The position numbers and the translations under genes are program-made. From Alphaproteobacteria bacterium (GTDB lineage Bacteria; Pseudomonadota; Alphaproteobacteria; Bin95), in the NCBI GenBank assembly GCA_022827685.1, contig JAJEIH010000148.1:1-40608 (forward strand): DNA of 40,608 nt. Direction: 5' to 3'. Each line of letters starts with the position of its first letter. Position 1 is the first letter of the stretch. Under the pieces are notes generated by a model. It was not told the origin of the DNA. It searched no databases and saw nothing but the letters and a program-made list of their open reading frames with translations. Shown here one piece after another: positions 13,995 to 29,000 of this stretch.

Positions 13995-15089
13995 ATGACA
14001 GACGAGAACGACCGCCTTGTCGATGCGATAACGGGCATTCTGCCGCCGCTGCTGAACGCGCTGGACGGCCTCGAATTCGCCGCCCGCAATCTCCACCCGG
14101 AGGGGTTGGAGCGGCTCTGGTCCATCCTCTCCCCGCTCGACGGCGCTCTCCGCAATGCCCGCCCGGCGCTGGAGGAAGCCGCCTGGCCGGACCGGCTCAA
14201 CGGCCCGAAGCAAGCGCTTGCGGGCAGCGCCGACACGGCGCTCGACGCGCTGGCGCGCATGGAGGTGGCGGGAGGAACGGGAGACATGCAGGAGGCGCTG
14301 CGCGGCACGCGCGCCCGCGCCCTGGCGCTGGAATATCTCTACCCGCTTTCGCCGATGCTGCCGCCGGTCAGCAAGTTCTTCCTGGAACCTCCGGCGCGCG
14401 GCGACGAGCAGCGCCTGGAGCGCCTCGCCCGGGCCTCCCGCCCGGAAGCGGGCGTGACGCATTTCGGCAACGGCCGCGGCGAGCGCGGCGGCTGGTCGCT
14501 GTTCGTGCCCGAGGACCTGGAGCCGGAGGAGCCCGCGCCGCTCGTCGTGGCGCTGCACGGCGGCGGCGGCCACGGGCGGCTGTTCCTCTGGAGCTGGCTC
14601 CGGGCCGCGCGCACGGCCGGCGCGATCCTCGCCGCGCCGACCTCGACCGGCCGGACCTGGGCGCTGATGGGGGACGACCCCGACACGCCGCGCCTGCTGG
14701 AGATCGTGGCGGAAATCCGTGAGCGGCATGCGGTGGACCCGGCGCGGCTGCTGCTGACCGGCATGAGCGACGGCGCGACCTTCAGCTATGTCTCGGCCCT
14801 GCCGTCGGATGGCCCCTGGACGCATCTGGCGCCCTTCGCCGGCACCTTCCACCCCATGCTGCTGGAATTCGTGGACGCCGAGAGGCTGAAGGGCCTGCCC
14901 ATCTACCTGGCGCATGGCGCGCTGGACTGGATGTTCCCGGTCGCCGTCGCCCGCGCCGCCCGCGACGCGTTCTCGGCCCGGGGCGCTGCCGTCACATACC
15001 GCGAACTCCCGGACCTCGCCCACGCCTTCCCGACCGATGAATGCGCCGCCGTGCTCGCCTGGCTGAAGGAGACGCCGGCGGCTGCCTGA
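13995..15089 (+). CDS. Alpha/beta hydrolase (PHB depolymerase / esterase-like)
   Basis: A 364-residue protein with an N-terminal all-helical segment (about 1-145) that I do not recognise and a C-terminal alpha/beta-hydrolase domain. The oxyanion-hole loop is LHGGGG at 187-192, the nucleophile elbow GMSDG puts the catalytic Ser at 258, the Asp is probable in HGALDWMFP and the His in LAHAFP near the C-terminus. The order and spacing fit the esterase D / PHB-depolymerase type family. No signal peptide is seen, so the enzyme is probably cytosolic. The substrate is not predictable. The start at 13995 is chosen over an ATG at 13977 because the conserved helical segment starts with MTDENDRLVDAI and the -10-like element overlaps the longer start. 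Confidence 0.8.
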   Translation: MTDENDRLVDAITGILPPLLNALDGLEFAARNLHPEGLERLWSILSPLDGALRNARPALEEAAWPDRLNGPKQALAGSADTALDALARMEVAGGTGDMQEALRGTRARALALEYLYPLSPMLPPVSKFFLEPPARGDEQRLERLARASRPEAGVTHFGNGRGERGGWSLFVPEDLEPEEPAPLVVALHGGGGHGRLFLWSWLRAARTAGAILAAPTSTGRTWALMGDDPDTPRLLEIVAEIRERHAVDPARLLLTGMSDGATFSYVSALPSDGPWTHLAPFAGTFHPMLLEFVDAERLKGLPIYLAHGALDWMFPVAVARAARDAFSARGAAVTYRELPDLAHAFPTDECAAVLAWLKETPAAA

Positions 15090-15100
15090 CCCGCCGGAAG

Positions 15101-15140
15101 TGTCATGGAACGTCATGGTGTGTCATGGAATGTCATGTTT
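15101..15140 (+). repeat. Four tandem 10-bp GTCATG units
   Basis: The units start at 15101, 15111, 15121 and 15131 and read TGTCATGGAA, CGTCATGGTG, TGTCATGGAA and TGTCATGTTT. Units 1 and 3 are identical, so there is also a 20-bp period. The 10-bp spacing places every core on nearly the same face of the helix, as in arrays bound by a DNA-binding protein. It starts 12 bases after the hydrolase stop. Confidence 0.75.
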
Positions 15141-15381
15141 GCCATGCGCGCGGCTCATATCCTGTTGCCGGTTCGGGCATGAAGACGGCCGCCGGATTCT
15201 CTTCTCCCGGCCTCTTCCCGCGAGGCGGGCGAGGAGATTTCCGGCGCCCGGTCCGCCCCGCCGAAGCTGTGTCCGTCCGCCTGGCGCATGATCGTTCCTC
15301 CATCTCGTTTCGTTCCACTCCGTCCCGCTCTCTCCGCCGCCGGCTCGGCCGGGCAGCGGACCCTGATTCGCGCGTATCCCG

Positions 15382-21285: not shown

Positions 21286-21705
21286 ATGGCTCCGACGCGC
21301 AGGGATGTGATGAGGCTGGGCGGCTTTGCCGCCGCTGCGGCGATGCTTCCCGCCGGCGCGGCGGCGGATACGAACGGCGTCGCCGGGGCCATCGCGGCCT
21401 TCACGAAAGGCGCCAGGGCGCTGGAAGCCGGCGTATCGCTGGACGTGCCCGAGATTGCCGACAATGGCGGCGCGGTGCCGGTCCGGGTCGCTGCGGAGGG
21501 CGCGCGGCACATTGCGCTTTTCGCCGACGCGAACCCGAATCCCGGCGTGGCCGTGTTTTCCTTCGGGAGGCTGACGCCGCCTGAGGCCACGATCCGCATC
21601 CGGCTCGCCAGGAGCCAGAACGTGATCGCGGTGGCCGAGATGGCGGACGGCACGTTCCGCAAGGCCAGCCGGCAGGTCTCGGTGACGGTCGGCGGCTGCG
21701 GGTGA
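21286..21705 (+). CDS. soxY: Sulfur-carrier protein SoxY
   Basis: A 139-residue periplasmic carrier that binds sulfur intermediates on its C-terminal Cys during thiosulfate oxidation. A twin-arginine signal is present (TRRDVMRLGGFAAAAAM, R5-R6) ahead of a hydrophobic stretch. The fold is recognisable by AAEGARHIALFADANPNPGVAVF. The protein ends VGGCG with the carrier Cys at 138; the canonical tail is GGCGG, so one terminal Gly is missing. soxZ follows 10 bases later. None of soxXA, soxB or soxCD is in the window, so SoxY must work with enzymes encoded elsewhere or in another sulfur pathway. Confidence 0.92.
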   Translation: MAPTRRDVMRLGGFAAAAAMLPAGAAADTNGVAGAIAAFTKGARALEAGVSLDVPEIADNGGAVPVRVAAEGARHIALFADANPNPGVAVFSFGRLTPPEATIRIRLARSQNVIAVAEMADGTFRKASRQVSVTVGGCG

Positions 21706-21715
21706 GGGGCCGGAC

Positions 21716-22042
21716 ATGGCGAAATCCACGCCCCGCGTAAAGTTCCCGAAATCGGTCGAGGCGAACACGCCCTTCACGGTCAGGACGAAAATCACCCACC
21801 CGATGCATACGGGGCTGCGCCGCGACCGCGACGGCAAGCCGATACCCCGCTGGATCGTCAACAGCTTCACGGTGCGGTTCAACGGCGAGGAGGCGCTCTC
21901 CGTCGCGCTGGAGCCGGCGGTTTCGAGCGATCCCTATATCCGGTTCGAGCTGTCCCTGCCGGAGTCGGGCCTGCTCGAATTCGAATGGCGCGACGATGAC
22001 GGCTCGATCTACAGCCTCAGCAGGGAGGTCGCCGTCAAGTAG
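21716..22042 (+). CDS. soxZ: Thiosulfate oxidation carrier complex protein SoxZ
   Basis: A 108-residue immunoglobulin-like partner of SoxY that forms the SoxYZ heterodimer in the periplasm, being exported with SoxY. Recognised by ITHPMHTGLRRDRDGKPIPRWIV near 25-50 and by the C-terminal LLEFEWRDDDGS segment. It has no signal peptide, as usual for SoxZ, which is carried through Tat by SoxY. The gene ends 8 bases from the convergent stop of the YeeE-like transporter, so no terminator room exists between them. Confidence 0.95.
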   Translation: MAKSTPRVKFPKSVEANTPFTVRTKITHPMHTGLRRDRDGKPIPRWIVNSFTVRFNGEEALSVALEPAVSSDPYIRFELSLPESGLLEFEWRDDDGSIYSLSREVAVK

Positions 22043-22050
22043 GGCAGGCC

Positions 22051-23094
22051 TCAATGGCGGCCGGCGAGGACCGCGCCCGCAACCTTCGCGGAGGCGGCCA
22101 TGGCGGCAAGCGCCAGCAGGGCCGCGAGGCTGGCGGTGGACATGCCGGAGAGGCCCGCGCCGACCGTGCAGCCGCCCGCCAGCACGCCGCCCGCCCCCAT
22201 CATCACGGCGCCGGCAAGGTAGCGCCCGGTCTGCCGGGGGCTTTCGAGGCTCTCCCAGCGGAACTCGCCTGCCGCCAGCGCCGCGGCCAGGCTGCCGGCG
22301 ATGACGCCTGCCGCAAGCCCGGTGCCGAAGCCGGCCGGAATGGAGGTTGCCGCCACGGCCCAGAACAGGGTGTCGGCCGTCGGCCCGGTGAAGCCCATCG
22401 ACTGGAGCGGAATCGGGTCGAAATCGTCGAGCAGCAGGAAGCCCGTGCCGATCCACCCCAACGGCACCAGCAGGCCGATTACCCCCGCCATCGCCAGGCG
22501 GGAGGCCGGCGCGCCGGAACGCAGCGCGAAGACCGCCGCCAGCAGCGCGAGGCCGAGCGGCCAGGCTTCTCCGCCGGGCAGGACCGTCAGCGCCGGCGCT
22601 TCGCCGCCATAGACGCTTGCCTCGCCGAGCGCCTGGCGCAGCGGCGCCAGCACCCCCTTCATCGCCGCATGGGCGGTTATCGCAAAGACGACCAGCACGA
22701 AGAGGGCGCGCAGATTGCCGCTGCCGGTGAGCACGGTGAGGCGCGACACGCACCCCCCGGCCAGCACCATGCCGGTCCCGAACAGCGCGCCGCCCAGCAG
22801 CGCGGACAGGACCGGAATGTCCGCGGCGAGAAAGCGGTGCGCCTCGAAGGAAACCAGGTCCATGGCAACCGCCAGCCGGGTTCCGGCTATCGCCGTGGCC
22901 AGCGCCATAACCCAGGCGCCCAGCGCGGGAAGGCAGTCGCGCCACCGGCCGACCAGGCTCCGGCGGAGGCAGAAGGCGCTGCGCTGCGCCAGCACGCCGT
23001 AGAGGCAGCCCAGCACCAGCCCGAGCAGGACGGAAGCCGCCAGCGGCGTCGTTTCCTCGAATCCAAGCGTCTCGAACATCGGCCGGACCGACAC
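22051..23094 (-). CDS. YeeE/YedE family sulfur transporter (TsuA-like)
   Basis: A 347-residue multi-pass inner-membrane protein of the YeeE/YedE (DUF395) family; the characterised member imports thiosulfate by way of conserved cysteines. Two pseudo-symmetric halves each carry the motif: AGGCVSR with Cys115 and AGGCTVGAGLSG with Cys309, and an N-terminal RSAFCLRR. About nine to ten hydrophobic segments are visible. Facing soxYZ tail to tail, it likely moves reduced sulfur across the inner membrane, which could feed cytoplasmic sulfur use or remove sulfur from SoxY. The orientation means separate control from soxYZ. Confidence 0.9.
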   Translation of the reverse strand: MSVRPMFETLGFEETTPLAASVLLGLVLGCLYGVLAQRSAFCLRRSLVGRWRDCLPALGAWVMALATAIAGTRLAVAMDLVSFEAHRFLAADIPVLSALLGGALFGTGMVLAGGCVSRLTVLTGSGNLRALFVLVVFAITAHAAMKGVLAPLRQALGEASVYGGEAPALTVLPGGEAWPLGLALLAAVFALRSGAPASRLAMAGVIGLLVPLGWIGTGFLLLDDFDPIPLQSMGFTGPTADTLFWAVAATSIPAGFGTGLAAGVIAGSLAAALAAGEFRWESLESPRQTGRYLAGAVMMGAGGVLAGGCTVGAGLSGMSTASLAALLALAAMAASAKVAGAVLAGRH

Positions 23095-24019: not shown

Positions 24020-24090
24020 CATTTCGGAAACGCGATGCAGGCGCGAGGGCATGCGCCCGGCCGCCGGTGCGTTCCGGGGAGGGCGATCGA

Positions 24091-25242
24091 ATGTCGGAAG
24101 CCGCGCATCCCGGCTGGGCCGTTTACGATCTGGACCGGCTGCTGGCCAATCTCGCCGCGATCCGCCGCCGGTGCGCGCCCGGGCAGGCCTGCATCGCCGC
24201 GCTCAAGGGCAATGCCTACGGACATGGCGCCGCGCCCGTGGCGCGGGCGCTCGATGGCGAGGGGCTCGCGGCGTTCATGACGGGCTCCTTCGACGAGGCC
24301 TGCCGGCTGCGCGCGGAGGGGCTGCGCACGCCCGTCGTCATGTTCGCCGGCGCGCTGCCGGAAGGCATGGCCGATCTCGTGGGCGCCGGGCTGGTGCCGA
24401 CAATCGTGGACCGGGCGGGCGCCGAAGCCGCAGCGCAGGCGGCGGCGGGGAAGCCGGCTCCGGTCTATGTCAAGGTCGATGCCGGGCTCGGCCGGCTCGG
24501 CGTGCCGCTCGAGGAGGCCGAGGGTTTCCTTGCCGGTCTTGCCGACATGCCCGGCCTCGAAGTGCAGGGGCTCTATACGCATCTGCCCTTCGGCGATGCG
24601 CGCGGGCGCGACTGGGCCAGGGAACGGTTCGACGCTTTCGACGCGCTGCTCGCGCGCCTCGAAGCGCGAGGGCTGGCGCCGCCGGTCACCCAGGCCGGCG
24701 CCAGCGCCTCCGTCGCCGCCGGACTGCCCGACCGGTCCAATGCGGTCTGCGTCGGCCACCTGCTCTACGGCCTCTCGCCCTTCGCCGATGCCTCGGTTGC
24801 GGATGTATCCGCGTTCAAGCCGGTCCTTGCCGAGGTCGGGAGCCGGCTGGTGCAGGTCTCCGACCATCCCCAGGGAAGCGACATCGCCATCGCCGGCAGC
24901 TACGGCATACGCCGCGGCCGGCGCACCGGGGTCGCGCCCGTCGGCGCCGCACAGGGCCTGGCCCGGCCCGCGCCGGGCAGCCGGCCGGAAGCGCTGATAC
25001 GCGGCCGGCGGGCGCCGATCCTGGCCGTGTCGCTCGAACACCTGACCCTCGACCTCTCGGAGGTCGAGGACGCTGCGGTCGGCGATGCCGTGCTGCTGCT
25101 CGGCGGGGATGGCGGCGCCGCTATCGGGCTGGGCGAGCTCGCCGCCTGGTCCGGGAGGCGGGAGCTCGACACGGTATTGGCGCTCTCGGGCCGGCTGGCT
25201 GCGCATTACCGCGGTGCGGCGGGCGGCGCTACTCGTATTTGA
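24091..25242 (+). CDS. Alanine racemase family protein
   Basis: A 383-residue PLP enzyme of the alanine racemase fold: N-terminal TIM barrel and C-terminal beta domain. The PLP lysine is K39 in KGNAYGHG (canonical KADAYGHG), the phosphate-side GASASVAAGLPD and a VCVGHLLYGLSP segment follow, and the second catalytic base is Y271 in GSYGIRRG. The segment equivalent to the substrate-side GYADG reads VGAAQG, so the second tyrosine of that loop is absent; substrate preference may therefore differ from L-alanine. ATG 24091 follows a GGGGAGGG site. The 3' end overlaps that of the cytochrome fusion gene by 14 bases. Whether it serves cell-wall synthesis or catabolism cannot be told. Confidence 0.85.
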   Translation: MSEAAHPGWAVYDLDRLLANLAAIRRRCAPGQACIAALKGNAYGHGAAPVARALDGEGLAAFMTGSFDEACRLRAEGLRTPVVMFAGALPEGMADLVGAGLVPTIVDRAGAEAAAQAAAGKPAPVYVKVDAGLGRLGVPLEEAEGFLAGLADMPGLEVQGLYTHLPFGDARGRDWARERFDAFDALLARLEARGLAPPVTQAGASASVAAGLPDRSNAVCVGHLLYGLSPFADASVADVSAFKPVLAEVGSRLVQVSDHPQGSDIAIAGSYGIRRGRRTGVAPVGAAQGLARPAPGSRPEALIRGRRAPILAVSLEHLTLDLSEVEDAAVGDAVLLLGGDGGAAIGLGELAAWSGRRELDTVLALSGRLAAHYRGAAGGATRI

Positions 25243-26002
25243 GCGGCTCGGCGAGTTCCGCCGGGGCGAGCGAGGCGGCATAGGCCAGGATCGCGTCGAT
25301 GTCGGCGAGCGTGATCTCCAGCGGCGCGATCGGCGGCGGACGCGCCTCGTCGAAGGGCGGCGTGACGCCGGGGACCTGCGTGAAGGCCGGATGCGGGTTT
25401 AGCGTGAAAAACGCCCGGAAGCGCCGCTCCCAGTCGCCGAGCGTGCGCAGCACGGCGAAGGACGGCGTCGAGTCGATGCCCCCCATGCGGTTCTTCTCCC
25501 CGACCACATGGCAGCGCCCGCAATTGACCAGCGCCAGACGCTCGCCCGCCAGCGCATCGCCCGTCACCGCCGGGCCCTTCACTTCCACTTTGGCGTCCGC
25601 CGCCGGCTCGTAGAGCGCCTTCCCGTCCGGCGCGAAGGACGCCACCGTGCGCTGGCCGATTTCGGAGGCGAGCCAGTCGAGGAAGCGGCCCGCCAGCGCC
25701 TGTTTCGCGCCCGCGCCGGCGCCGGCCAGATAGACCGTCTCCCCGCCGCGGAAGACCGGGCGGCCCCCGTCCACGGCGGGGCCGATCAGCACCTCCGCCT
25801 CAATGCCGGGTTCGAGCGGGACCGAGGTTGCGCGGATGCCGGTCTTCAGCGAAAAGCGCGGCAGCATGTGCTTCAGCAGCCCGCTCTCGATCAGCTCGGG
25901 GCTCGCCGCCACCGTTATGCGGCGCTCCTCAGCCCCTGCGCCGGCCGCCGCCAGCATCAGCACCGCGGCCAGTCCGAGTCTCCACCGGATCGACATCGCC
26001 AT
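25229..26002 (-). CDS. Fusion of TupA-like binding domain and cytochrome c domain
   Basis: A 257-residue secreted protein with a signal peptide (RWRLGLAAVLMLAAAGAGA). Residues about 25-55 (ITVAASPELIESGLLKHMLP) resemble the start of tungstate/molybdate-binding proteins, and residues 105-135 (FLDWLASEIGQRTVASFAPDGK) resemble their C-terminal end, with most of the middle of such a protein missing. The C-terminal half is a mono-haem cytochrome c: C161, C164 and H165 in CGRCH, and a likely distal Met in RMGG. It is therefore a periplasmic electron carrier with a reduced ligand-binding module. No enzyme partner is adjacent. The fusion is unusual; the family of cytochromes ending PHPAFTQVPGVTPPF may well carry it elsewhere. 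Confidence 0.75.
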   Translation of the reverse strand: MAMSIRWRLGLAAVLMLAAAGAGAEERRITVAASPELIESGLLKHMLPRFSLKTGIRATSVPLEPGIEAEVLIGPAVDGGRPVFRGGETVYLAGAGAGAKQALAGRFLDWLASEIGQRTVASFAPDGKALYEPAADAKVEVKGPAVTGDALAGERLALVNCGRCHVVGEKNRMGGIDSTPSFAVLRTLGDWERRFRAFFTLNPHPAFTQVPGVTPPFDEARPPPIAPLEITLADIDAILAYAASLAPAELAEPLKYE

Positions 26003-26543: not shown

Positions 26544-26747
26544 ATGAGCGGCGATTTCAACATGTCGATGCGCAAATTCCTGAAGCAGGTCGGCGTGACC
26601 TCCCAGCAGGCGATCGAGGAGGCGATGCGCAACGCCGGGGAGGAGCGGACGGCCGGGAAGAGCTTCACCGCCCGCATGGTGCTGACCATCGACGGGCTCG
26701 ACCTCAGCCACAGCGTCGAGGGGCGCATCGACGGGAAGGCCGGATGA
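26544..26747 (+). CDS. DUF6494 family protein
   Basis: A 67-residue protein recognised as DUF6494 by NMSMRKFLKQVGVTSQQAIEEAMR and MVLTIDGLDLSHSVEGRID. It has a helical first half and a beta hairpin in the second; no Cys and no transmembrane segment. No function is known for the family. It has an excellent ribosome-binding site (AGGAGGAGG at 26530-26538) and its TGA overlaps the ATG of the Mrp gene, so it is the first cistron of a coupled four-gene unit and could be an accessory or adaptor of the Mrp protein. Confidence 0.85.
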   Translation: MSGDFNMSMRKFLKQVGVTSQQAIEEAMRNAGEERTAGKSFTARMVLTIDGLDLSHSVEGRIDGKAG

Positions 26748-27811
26748 CCGCAACGCGCGAGGAGGTGCTGGCGGCGCTCAAGGGCGTCACCGACCCGATC
26801 AGCGGGCAGGACCTCGTCTCCGCCGGTCCCGTGCGGGCGCTGACGGTGGACGGCGGCACGGTGCGCTTCGTGCTGGAGATCGACCCGGCGCGCGCGGAGC
26901 TCATGGAAGGCGTGCGGGCCGAGGCGGAAGCGGCGGTGCGCGCGGTGCCGGGCGTCGAGCAGGTGTCGGCCGTGATGACCGCCCACCGCGACGCCGCGCC
27001 GGGGCCGGAACTCAATATCGGCCGGCGTTCCGAGCCGCAGGGGCCCCAGCAGATTCCGGGCGTGGACCGCATCGTCGCCATCGCGTCGGGCAAGGGCGGC
27101 GTCGGCAAGTCCACGGTGACCGCCAATCTCGCCGCAGCGCTGGCGGCCGAGGGGCGCCGCGTCGGCCTGCTCGATGCCGATGTTTACGGGCCGTCGCAGC
27201 CGAGGATGCTCGGCGTTTCCGGCCGCCCGGCCTCGCCCGACGGCAAGACCATCCTGCCGCTGCGCAACCACGGCGTCACCATGATGTCTATCGGGCTGAT
27301 GACGCGCGAGGACGAGGCGGTCGTCTGGCGCGGACCGATGCTGATGGGCGCGCTGCAGCAGATGATGAACCAGGTGCAGTGGGGCGCGCTCGACATTCTG
27401 CTGGCGGACCTGCCGCCCGGCACGGGCGATGTGCCGATGACCCTCTCGCAGAACGCCGAGGTCACCGGCGCCATCGTCGTCTCCACCCCGCAGGACGTGG
27501 CCTTGCTGGACGCGCGCAAGGGCGTGGACATGTTCCGCAAGATGTCCGTGCCGATCCTCGGCATGATCGAGAACATGAGCACGCATATCTGCTCCAATTG
27601 CGGGCATGAGGAGCATCTGTTCGGCCATGGCGGCGTGCGCGCCGAGGCGGAGAAGCTCGGCATCCCGCTGCTGGCGGAGATTCCGCTGGCGCTCGGCATC
27701 CGGCTCGCATCCGACGGCGGCGCGCCCATCGTGGTGTCGAAGCCCGCCTCGCCGGAAGCAGCGGCCTTCCGCCAGGTCGCGCAACATCTGATCGAGACCG
27801 GGGCCGGATGA
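26744..27811 (+). CDS. mrp: Mrp/NBP35 family Fe-S carrier ATPase
   Basis: A 355-residue P-loop NTPase that binds and transfers Fe-S clusters to target apoproteins (Mrp/ApbC, NBP35 family). The N-terminal DUF59/MIP18 domain covers about 5-85; the deviant Walker A is GKGGVGKS at 116-123; LLDADVYGPSQPRMLG and ADLPPGTGD follow; and the cluster-binding CxxC is C283-S-N-C286 in THICSNCGH. Two monomers would share one [4Fe-4S] cluster at these Cys. ATG 26744 overlaps the DUF6494 stop (ATGA), and its own stop overlaps the ligase-like gene. Its location suggests that it serves the proteins of this operon rather than, or as well as, general cluster delivery. Confidence 0.95.
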   Translation: MTATREEVLAALKGVTDPISGQDLVSAGPVRALTVDGGTVRFVLEIDPARAELMEGVRAEAEAAVRAVPGVEQVSAVMTAHRDAAPGPELNIGRRSEPQGPQQIPGVDRIVAIASGKGGVGKSTVTANLAAALAAEGRRVGLLDADVYGPSQPRMLGVSGRPASPDGKTILPLRNHGVTMMSIGLMTREDEAVVWRGPMLMGALQQMMNQVQWGALDILLADLPPGTGDVPMTLSQNAEVTGAIVVSTPQDVALLDARKGVDMFRKMSVPILGMIENMSTHICSNCGHEEHLFGHGGVRAEAEKLGIPLLAEIPLALGIRLASDGGAPIVVSKPASPEAAAFRQVAQHLIETGAG

Positions 27812-28524
27812 GCGAGCCCGTCTTCCCGCCGCTGTTCAGGGGCGAGGCGGTCGGGGGCCGCGTCGATCCCTTCGCCAAGGCCTGCTCCTCGGCGGCGCTC
27901 GGCTGCGACGGCGGAACGATCTTCTACAACATCGCCGCCGACTGGCTGAAGGCGGCCATCGTGTTCGCGCCGGAAGTGCCGCTGGAGGACGCGATGGTGA
28001 TGCTGCCGGCCTGCGGGGTCGGGTTCCAGAATGCGCTGGGCGCGCTTGCGCCGCCGGAGGTCGCCGTGCATCTCACCTGGGAGGGCGGAATCCTGGTGAA
28101 CGGGGCCTCCTGCGGGCGGCTGCGCGCCGACGCTTCCGACTGCGGGCCGGACGAGGTGCCCGACTGGCTGGTCGTCGGCCTCGAAGTGCCGCTCATCGCC
28201 GAGGACGCGGACGCGCCCGGCGCCGCGCCGGACCGGACCTCGCTCTATGAGGAGGGCTGCGTGGAGGTGGCGCCGGATGCGCTGCTGGAAAGCTGGTCGC
28301 GCCACACGCTGGTCTGGATCAACCGCTGGTCCGACGACGGCGCCGCGCCGCTGCACGGGGAATGGCGCGGGCTTGCCCACGGCATCGGCGAGGAGGTTTC
28401 GGTCGGCGGGCGGACGGGCCTCTTCGTCGGCATAGACGAGCGCTTCGGCATGCTGCTGCGCGAGGGCGGGACGACGAGCCTGCTGCCGCTCTCCGGCCTG
28501 CTGGAGCGGGGAGGAGAGACGTGA
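27808..28524 (+). CDS. Biotin/lipoate protein ligase-like protein with DUF4444
   Basis: A 238-residue protein of the biotin/lipoate A/B ligase superfamily. Residues about 20-140 fit the ligase core and residues about 165-235 (LESWSRHTLVWINRWSDDGAAPLHGEWR) the DUF4444 tail. In the segment where biotin ligases have the catalytic KWPND, this protein has L-T90-W-E-G-G, so the catalytic Lys and the Asn-Asp are absent. The GRGRxGR loop is also absent. It is therefore unlikely to work as a normal ligase; a binding, scaffolding or different acyl-transfer role is possible. It starts by a 4-nt ATGA overlap with mrp and ends in a GTGA overlap with the DUF6505 gene. Confidence 0.82.
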   Translation: MSEPVFPPLFRGEAVGGRVDPFAKACSSAALGCDGGTIFYNIAADWLKAAIVFAPEVPLEDAMVMLPACGVGFQNALGALAPPEVAVHLTWEGGILVNGASCGRLRADASDCGPDEVPDWLVVGLEVPLIAEDADAPGAAPDRTSLYEEGCVEVAPDALLESWSRHTLVWINRWSDDGAAPLHGEWRGLAHGIGEEVSVGGRTGLFVGIDERFGMLLREGGTTSLLPLSGLLERGGET

Positions 28525-29000
28525 ATCTCGCGCGCGCCATCCATTTCGACGAAAGCGACCTGCGCATCTTCCACAGCCCGGCGCGCACGGGCGAGTGGTG
28601 CGTTCCGGGCGGCTTCGAGTTCTCCAACTGGTCCGAGGCGGACCTTGTCGGCAAGGCGCGGCAGGCCTTCGCCAATGGCTGGCTCGGCGTCGAGACCTTC
28701 GGGCGCGTCACCTTCGTCGCCGTCACCGCGGTCCGGGAGGAGGAATTCGAGGCGCTGGCGGCGCGGCTCGCCGGGCATTTCGTCCAGGTTTACGGCGCGC
28801 CCTCGGTCGAGGCGGCGCTGCCCGTCGCCAGGGAGGAGCTGGAGCATATGGCCGAGCTCTGCGAGGACCACGACCCCAACACCCTGCTGACGGTCGCGCG
28901 CGAACTCACCGAAGCGGGCGTGCGCGAAAGCTTCCGCTCCATCAAGCCCCAGGACGCCGGCCTCGAACAATTCGCCATCCACGGCGATCTGGAGGGGTGA
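28521..29000 (+). CDS. DUF6505 family protein
   Basis: A 159-residue protein starting at a GTG (28521) that overlaps the ligase-like stop. The family is recognised from RAIHFDESDLRIFHSPARTGEWCVPGGFEFS and FANGWLGVETFGRVTFVAVT. The central part is alpha/beta, and the C-terminus is helical with DHDPNTLLTVARELTE. It is cytosolic and of unknown function. It closes the four-gene unit; a convergent deoxyribosyltransferase gene ends 18 bases further on. Confidence 0.82.
   Translation: MNLARAIHFDESDLRIFHSPARTGEWCVPGGFEFSNWSEADLVGKARQAFANGWLGVETFGRVTFVAVTAVREEEFEALAARLAGHFVQVYGAPSVEAALPVAREELEHMAELCEDHDPNTLLTVARELTEAGVRESFRSIKPQDAGLEQFAIHGDLEG

Follow-up and report, generated by a model that had tools for sequence, protein, structure and literature searches.

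A single TupA lobe fused to a mono-heme cytochrome c and encoded beside formate dehydrogenase genes in Alphaproteobacteria

The window analysed here, a 40,608-nucleotide stretch of an alphaproteobacterial genome (GenBank assembly GCA_022827685.1, contig JAJEIH010000148.1), encodes on its minus strand a predicted exported protein that joins a domain related to the periplasmic binding protein TupA to a cytochrome c domain. The gene and its features are as follows.

25229..26002, minus strand: whole fusion gene (signal peptide, TupA lobe-A-like domain and mono-heme cytochrome c; 257 amino acids, ATG start, open frame)
25934..26002, minus strand: predicted Sec signal peptide, residues 1-23, cleaved between AGA and AEE (positive N-terminal end and hydrophobic core on inspection of the translation)
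25595..25927, minus strand: TupA lobe-A-like domain, residues 26-136, secondary structure b-a-b-b-b-b-a, pLDDT mostly >90 (sequence search, hhalign and AlphaFold model)
25895..25906, minus strand: position of the TupA oxyanion motif TTTS, here A-S-P-E, residues 33-36 (alignment)
25844..25864, minus strand: LPRFSLK, residues 47-53, containing the conserved P48, R49, F50 and K53 (alignment; neighbouring TupAs mostly acidic at 49 and 53)
25763..25780, minus strand: loop, residues 75-80, a few residues in place of the central strand and lobe B of TupA, ~110-125 residues (alignment, hhalign and model; lobe borders from PMC5517513)
25565..25594, minus strand: linker between lobe and cytochrome, residues 137-146, variable and of low confidence, pLDDT <50-70 (model and alignment)
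25232..25564, minus strand: class-I-type cytochrome c domain, residues 147-257 (Pfam, heme-domain model and fold matches)
25508..25522, minus strand: heme c attachment motif CGRCH, residues 161-165 (translation and alignment)
25376..25396, minus strand: PHPAFTQ, residues 203-209, with P203-H204 invariant in fused and unfused relatives and H204 the candidate distal heme ligand (alignment)

Independent copies of the fusion, 38-97% identical, occur in more than 45 genomes, which establishes 25229-26002 as a true coding gene. It is a real gene under selection, with a mean column identity of 57% across 46 aligned members and invariant positions in both halves. Full-length relatives come from four alphaproteobacterial metagenome-assembled genomes (MAGs; 85-96% identity) and one Rhodobacteraceae MAG, and a further relative lies within the genus of the window (G288). 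An annotation or frameshift artefact merging two genes was considered and ruled out by the open frame in those >45 genomes. In annotated genomes the product is labelled 'hypothetical protein' or 'c-type cytochrome'.

Single-sequence phmmer against PDB sequences placed TupA 5my5 as the top match of the fusion (E 2.8e-4), in two stretches: query residues 22-58 on TupA 21-57, and 61-135 on TupA 198-273. A profile of the fusion family matches the TupA-like structures 3muq, 3cvg, 3lr1 and 5my5. Aligned by hhalign with neighbouring TupAs, the N-domain again matched in two separate segments: E-values ran from 4.6e-7 to 5e-8 in the opening segment and from 8.9e-8 to 1.2e-8 in the closing one. Chance similarity is ruled out by 20 column-permuted controls (two test alignments permuted ten times apiece) and a reversed one, none of which fell below 0.038. 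The earlier note had described this part of the protein as the beginning and end of TupA with the middle missing, and these results bear it out. Scans of the whole fusion against Pfam and NCBIfam returned sub-threshold matches only; the TupA model NF041772 scored 14.4 bits over residues 103-137 alone, under its 400-bit cut-off, and the genome's real TupA (L086) also stayed under the cut-off at 192 bits, yet over its full length.

In the AlphaFold model of the mature fusion (mean pLDDT 86; pTM 0.51, leaving the relative placement of the two domains uncertain), residues 3-113 superpose on TupA 5my5 with a Z of 15.4 at 1.8 Å over 111 residues (VIA-align), above ModA and iron-binding periplasmic binding proteins at Z 11-13. 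A lack of binding-protein-fold similarity in residues 20-140 is thereby excluded and, together with the hhalign E-values, this match rejects the alternative that the N-terminal half is a short unrelated domain. Lobe A of TupA comprises A2-R76 and Y201-E251, and lobe B A91-Q200 (PMC5517513); set against these borders, the two segments of the fusion show that one entire lobe has been kept and the other is absent. The N-domain, of ~111 residues, is thus a complete TupA lobe A, built from chain start and chain end with lobe B excised and no ragged deletion, and it shares ancestry with that lobe. The 'shortened' module of the earlier note keeps its TupA homology over residues ~26-136, and what seemed a truncation is refined to a structurally whole lobe.

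The oxyanion in TupA is thought to be held between TTTS in lobe A and R118, T124 and D170 in lobe B (PMC5517513). The segment bearing the three lobe B ligands is absent from the fusion, and TTS, present in 11/11 neighbouring TupAs, occurs in 0/46 fusions, most of which read A-P-x-x at this position, often with Glu or Asp. With three of four ligand elements in the missing lobe and the fourth lost in all 46 members, the alignment indicates that the ligand site is gone. The half-lobe might nevertheless have kept its capacity to bind a small ligand, an oxyanion or other, either as a single unit or as a homodimer that restores the clamshell, as in the ligand-sensing or oxyanion-handling electron carrier proposed earlier; its fold is intact, and the similar folds of the two TupA lobes (PMC5517513) make a two-lobe homodimer conceivable. 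Against this proposal stand the loss of all four elements, the need for both lobes to form the cleft and the finding that replacing R118 of TupA by an acidic residue (R118E) abolished binding (PMC5517513). We regard retained binding as highly improbable. Metal insertion into formate dehydrogenases of the type considered below is cytoplasmic and precedes Tat export, so that delivery of an oxyanion to the enzyme in the periplasm is implausible as well.

Conserved basic residues have been gained on the lobe. R49 is present in 46/46 fusions (E in 7/11 neighbouring TupAs), K53 in 45/46 (D/E in 7/11), R57 in 40/46 (E/D in 11/11) and the fusion's own R118 in 39/46 (E/A in 8/11). This pattern suggests a new interaction surface, or the same residues may instead mediate contact between the lobe and the heme domain.

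The fusion to a mono-heme c-type domain is confirmed: CGRCH is present in the protein of the window, and C161, R163, C164 and H165 recur in all 46 members. Pfam Cytochrom_C (PF00034) scores 16.2 bits on the fusion of the window against a gathering score of 21.3, and matches 20/46 members at E<=0.01. Modelled alone (pLDDT 83), the heme domain has a predicted cytochrome c fold: the listed structural matches are c-type cytochromes, the best at a middling Z of 7.5 over 83 residues. Among 36 fused and unfused cytochrome relatives the only invariant positions are a G, CxxCH, a P, an F and P-H; no Met is invariant, and the one invariant residue that could serve as distal ligand is His204. His204 is thus likely to fill that role, which would give the heme His/His ligation.

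Genes on both sides of the fusion place it in a recurrent neighbourhood, one half of which is intact in the window (26544-29000).

24067..25242, plus strand: alanine racemase, convergent, overlapping the 3' end of the fusion gene; a lineage-specific neighbour
26544..26738, plus strand: DUF6494-type small protein, divergent neighbour, in the conserved block
26744..27811, plus strand: Mrp/ApbC Fe-S carrier P-loop NTPase
27808..28524, plus strand: biotin/lipoate ligase-like protein (BPL_LplA_LipB_2 and DUF4444)
28521..29000, plus strand: DUF6505 protein, end of the conserved block

The racemase and fusion genes overlap tail to tail by 14 bases (25229-25242). Past the racemase, at 21286-23094, lie genes for SoxY and SoxZ and, on the opposite strand, a Sulf_transp (YeeE/YedE-type) transporter gene, at the spot where sister genomes carry formate dehydrogenase (FDH) genes; no soxA, soxB or soxX was noticed nearby.

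Twenty of the 21 fusion regions that have both flanks share the gene order DUF6505, LplA-like, Mrp/ApbC, DUF6494, fusion, large 4Fe-4S protein, DUF3305, DUF3306, TorD, fdhA, fdh3B and fdhC, one or two small genes or the cluster end being undetected in some regions. The FDH alpha gene (fdhA) lies beside the fusion in the same proportion of these regions (20/21), and tupA, tupB or tupC in 10/21, in agreement with the molybdo- or tungsto-enzyme neighbour anticipated in the earlier note. Annotated plasmids of Sagittula, Sulfitobacter and Tateyamaria carry the same cluster genes, with fdhA/fdh3B linkage cited for Sagittula and Tateyamaria. A second unusual carrier often follows the fdhC end of these clusters, a WD40 beta-propeller that ends in a cytochrome c domain (Pfam WD40 8e-27, Cytochrom_C 2e-8), as at L058:24151-25431 on a plasmid of Sagittula sp. 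P11 and at L085 ~14028-15269.

The FDH side of the cluster in the genome of the window lies on another contig (C164), which carries the 4Fe-4S, DUF3305, DUF3306, TorD, fdhA, fdh3B, fdhC and WD40-cytochrome genes (fdhA 82% identical; fdh3B above its NCBIfam cut-off), and a complete tupBCA lies on a third. Since contigs of sister MAGs carry the fusion together with the 4Fe-4S gene (L001) and, further along, with fdhA (L004), this split reflects rearrangement or an assembly effect.

The cytochrome was found in 91 of 292 sampled genomes of the Rhodobacterales-like order (that of G022), two of these matches (G395, G512) being cytochrome-only, so that the fusion itself occurs in ~89/292 sampled Rhodobacterales genomes, besides the genus of the window. 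FDH alpha was detected in 90/91 genomes with the cytochrome versus 56/201 without it (Fisher p 1e-34, kinship ignored), and in a class-wide sample in 11/11 versus 30/278 (Fisher p 1e-10, kinship again ignored). The sole FDH-negative exception, G489, holds a copy (C2; L106:9563-10069) that is interrupted by an in-frame TGA and can be matched only up to residue 201; it lies near a contig end and adjoins DUF6494-Mrp-LplA-DUF6505. With no FDH alpha match in that genome, the copy looks like decay after loss of the enzyme. Conversely, the FDH clusters L109-L111 have an empty cytochrome slot, which makes the cytochrome optional and inessential to the FDH enzyme. These clusters also bear on a role in which the cytochrome would help to mature the exported FDH or to control its redox quality, for instance by assisting the assembly of Fe-S or heme partners, in place of catalytic electron transfer: the fusion does sit among maturation-type genes (Mrp/ApbC, TorD, DUF3305/3306 and the 4Fe-4S protein), but those genes persist in L109-L111, and we consider such a role very unlikely.

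All genomes with the cytochrome (91/91) also encode TupA, and so do 55/56 FDH genomes without it; among TupA-positive genomes, FDH occurs in 90/91 with the cytochrome versus 55/102 without. The cytochrome thus tracks FDH and not the transporter as such. This comparison weighs on a model of redox-linked control of tungstate uptake, in which the half-lobe takes the position of TupA lobe A on the TupB permease and the heme domain lets the redox state of FDH or the periplasm tune import. To judge by homology, lobe A of TupA is one of the two surfaces in contact with the dimeric permease (PMC5517513, on lobe symmetry and TupB), tup genes adjoin about half of the fusions, and in one genome (G615) an unfused relative immediately precedes tupB-tupC-tupA. 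However, the universal presence of TupA is explained by FDH, half of the regions and the genome of the window show no linkage between tupBCA and the fusion, and the charge at several lobe positions is the reverse of that in TupA, so that we judge the model quite improbable.

Cytochromes of this kind also exist unfused. One occupies the exact cluster slot (G096, L021), and another lies beside both tupBCA and FDH (L022). In G615, at L103:9600-12234, the heme protein directly before tupB-tupC-tupA may be co-transcribed with the tungstate importer. Two lobe-less cytochromes of Rhodobacterales lie away from FDH genes, among apparently unrelated genes (L077:9751-10152 in G512 and L078:9719-10132 in G395). 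Another unfused relative, in L023 (G079), lies ~2 kb from CoxS/L/M-like genes of molybdenum-hydroxylase type, as judged from sequence starts only. The lobe-less forms in G096, L021, L077 and L078 imply that the heme domain does not need the lobe. In the cytochrome tree seven unfused sequences fall outside the fused group and three inside, with weak support; a single gain of the lobe followed by one or two losses is compatible with this topology. The fusion may plausibly have arisen from the recurrent proximity of this cytochrome to tupA.

Given these relatives, the lobe might be a neutral leftover from the joining of tupA and cytochrome genes, stabilising at most, with the heme domain doing all the work. 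The lobe-less cytochrome of L021, a tree that permits later loss and a lower identity in the lobe than in the heme domain (41% vs 58%) fit such an origin. By contrast, the invariant P48-R49-F50, W110, L111 and G116 and the near-invariant K53 and T119 indicate purifying selection on the lobe, which has moreover been retained in the ~89 Rhodobacterales genomes; we consider a neutral remnant unlikely.

We favour a reading in which the fusion is an accessory periplasmic electron carrier of an FDH3-type Mo/W formate dehydrogenase, with the TupA half-lobe reused for docking, and give it a probability of roughly one half. The enzyme would be Tat-exported, and its FdhA-Fdh3B-FdhC cytochrome b complex, together with the second c-type cytochrome of the cluster, would donate electrons to the class-I-type cytochrome c domain, with its heme bound at CGRCH and His204 as the probable distal ligand, and this domain would carry them towards the periplasmic respiratory pool. 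Lobe A would have been captured from tungstate-uptake genes travelling with the FDH cluster; lacking lobe B and TTTS, it would no longer bind tungstate, and through R49, K53, R57 and R118 it may hold the heme domain docked to another protein, the FDH complex being the likeliest partner. The lobe has probably been put to new use in docking rather than retained to sense tungstate. In a broader formulation, which strikes us as rather unlikely, half of the clamshell of a tungstate receptor has become the docking part of a cytochrome c linking tungsten supply to formate respiration, either by parking the heme on W/Mo FDH or by redox gating of the TupBC importer.

The fusion is a clear example, conserved across genomes, in which a periplasmic binding protein has been severed at the border between its lobes and put to new use beside the metalloenzyme that its parent serves. 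A protein that carried only generic labels gains a neighbourhood and testable predictions, namely formate-dependent heme reduction, no tungstate binding, His/His ligation and a partner for the basic patch. Rhodobacterales are an abundant marine group, and ~30% of those sampled encode the fusion. A literature search, mostly of papers outside subscription, returned no described TupA-cytochrome fusion, and the passages of PMC4464133 that were consulted make no mention of one.

Among known proteins, TupA (NF041772; 5my5, 3lr1) shares with the fusion the sequence of lobe A at both chain ends, the lobe A fold, periplasmic export and often an adjoining gene. It differs in that two lobes and a central strand form its cleft, whereas the fusion has lobe A only, is without TTTS and R118/T124/D170, carries a cytochrome c and scores far below the TupA model (14.4 vs 400 bits). 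With class I cytochromes c (PF00034) the fusion has in common CxxCH, the N- and C-terminal helices and its best heme-domain fold matches (Z up to 7.5 to c-type cytochromes), but it shows no conserved Met as candidate ligand, has an invariant PH motif instead, bears an attached half binding protein and, in the window, scores below the Pfam gathering score (16.2 vs 21.3 bits). The stand-alone cytochromes L021, L022 and L103 have the same heme domain with its PHP motif, L021 in the same slot and L022 and L103 beside tupBCA, but are without the TupA lobe. At the level of gene clusters, PMC4464133 describes an FDH3-type formate dehydrogenase operon type with TorD, DUF3305 and DUF3306, whose gene order and accessory genes match those of the fusion clusters.
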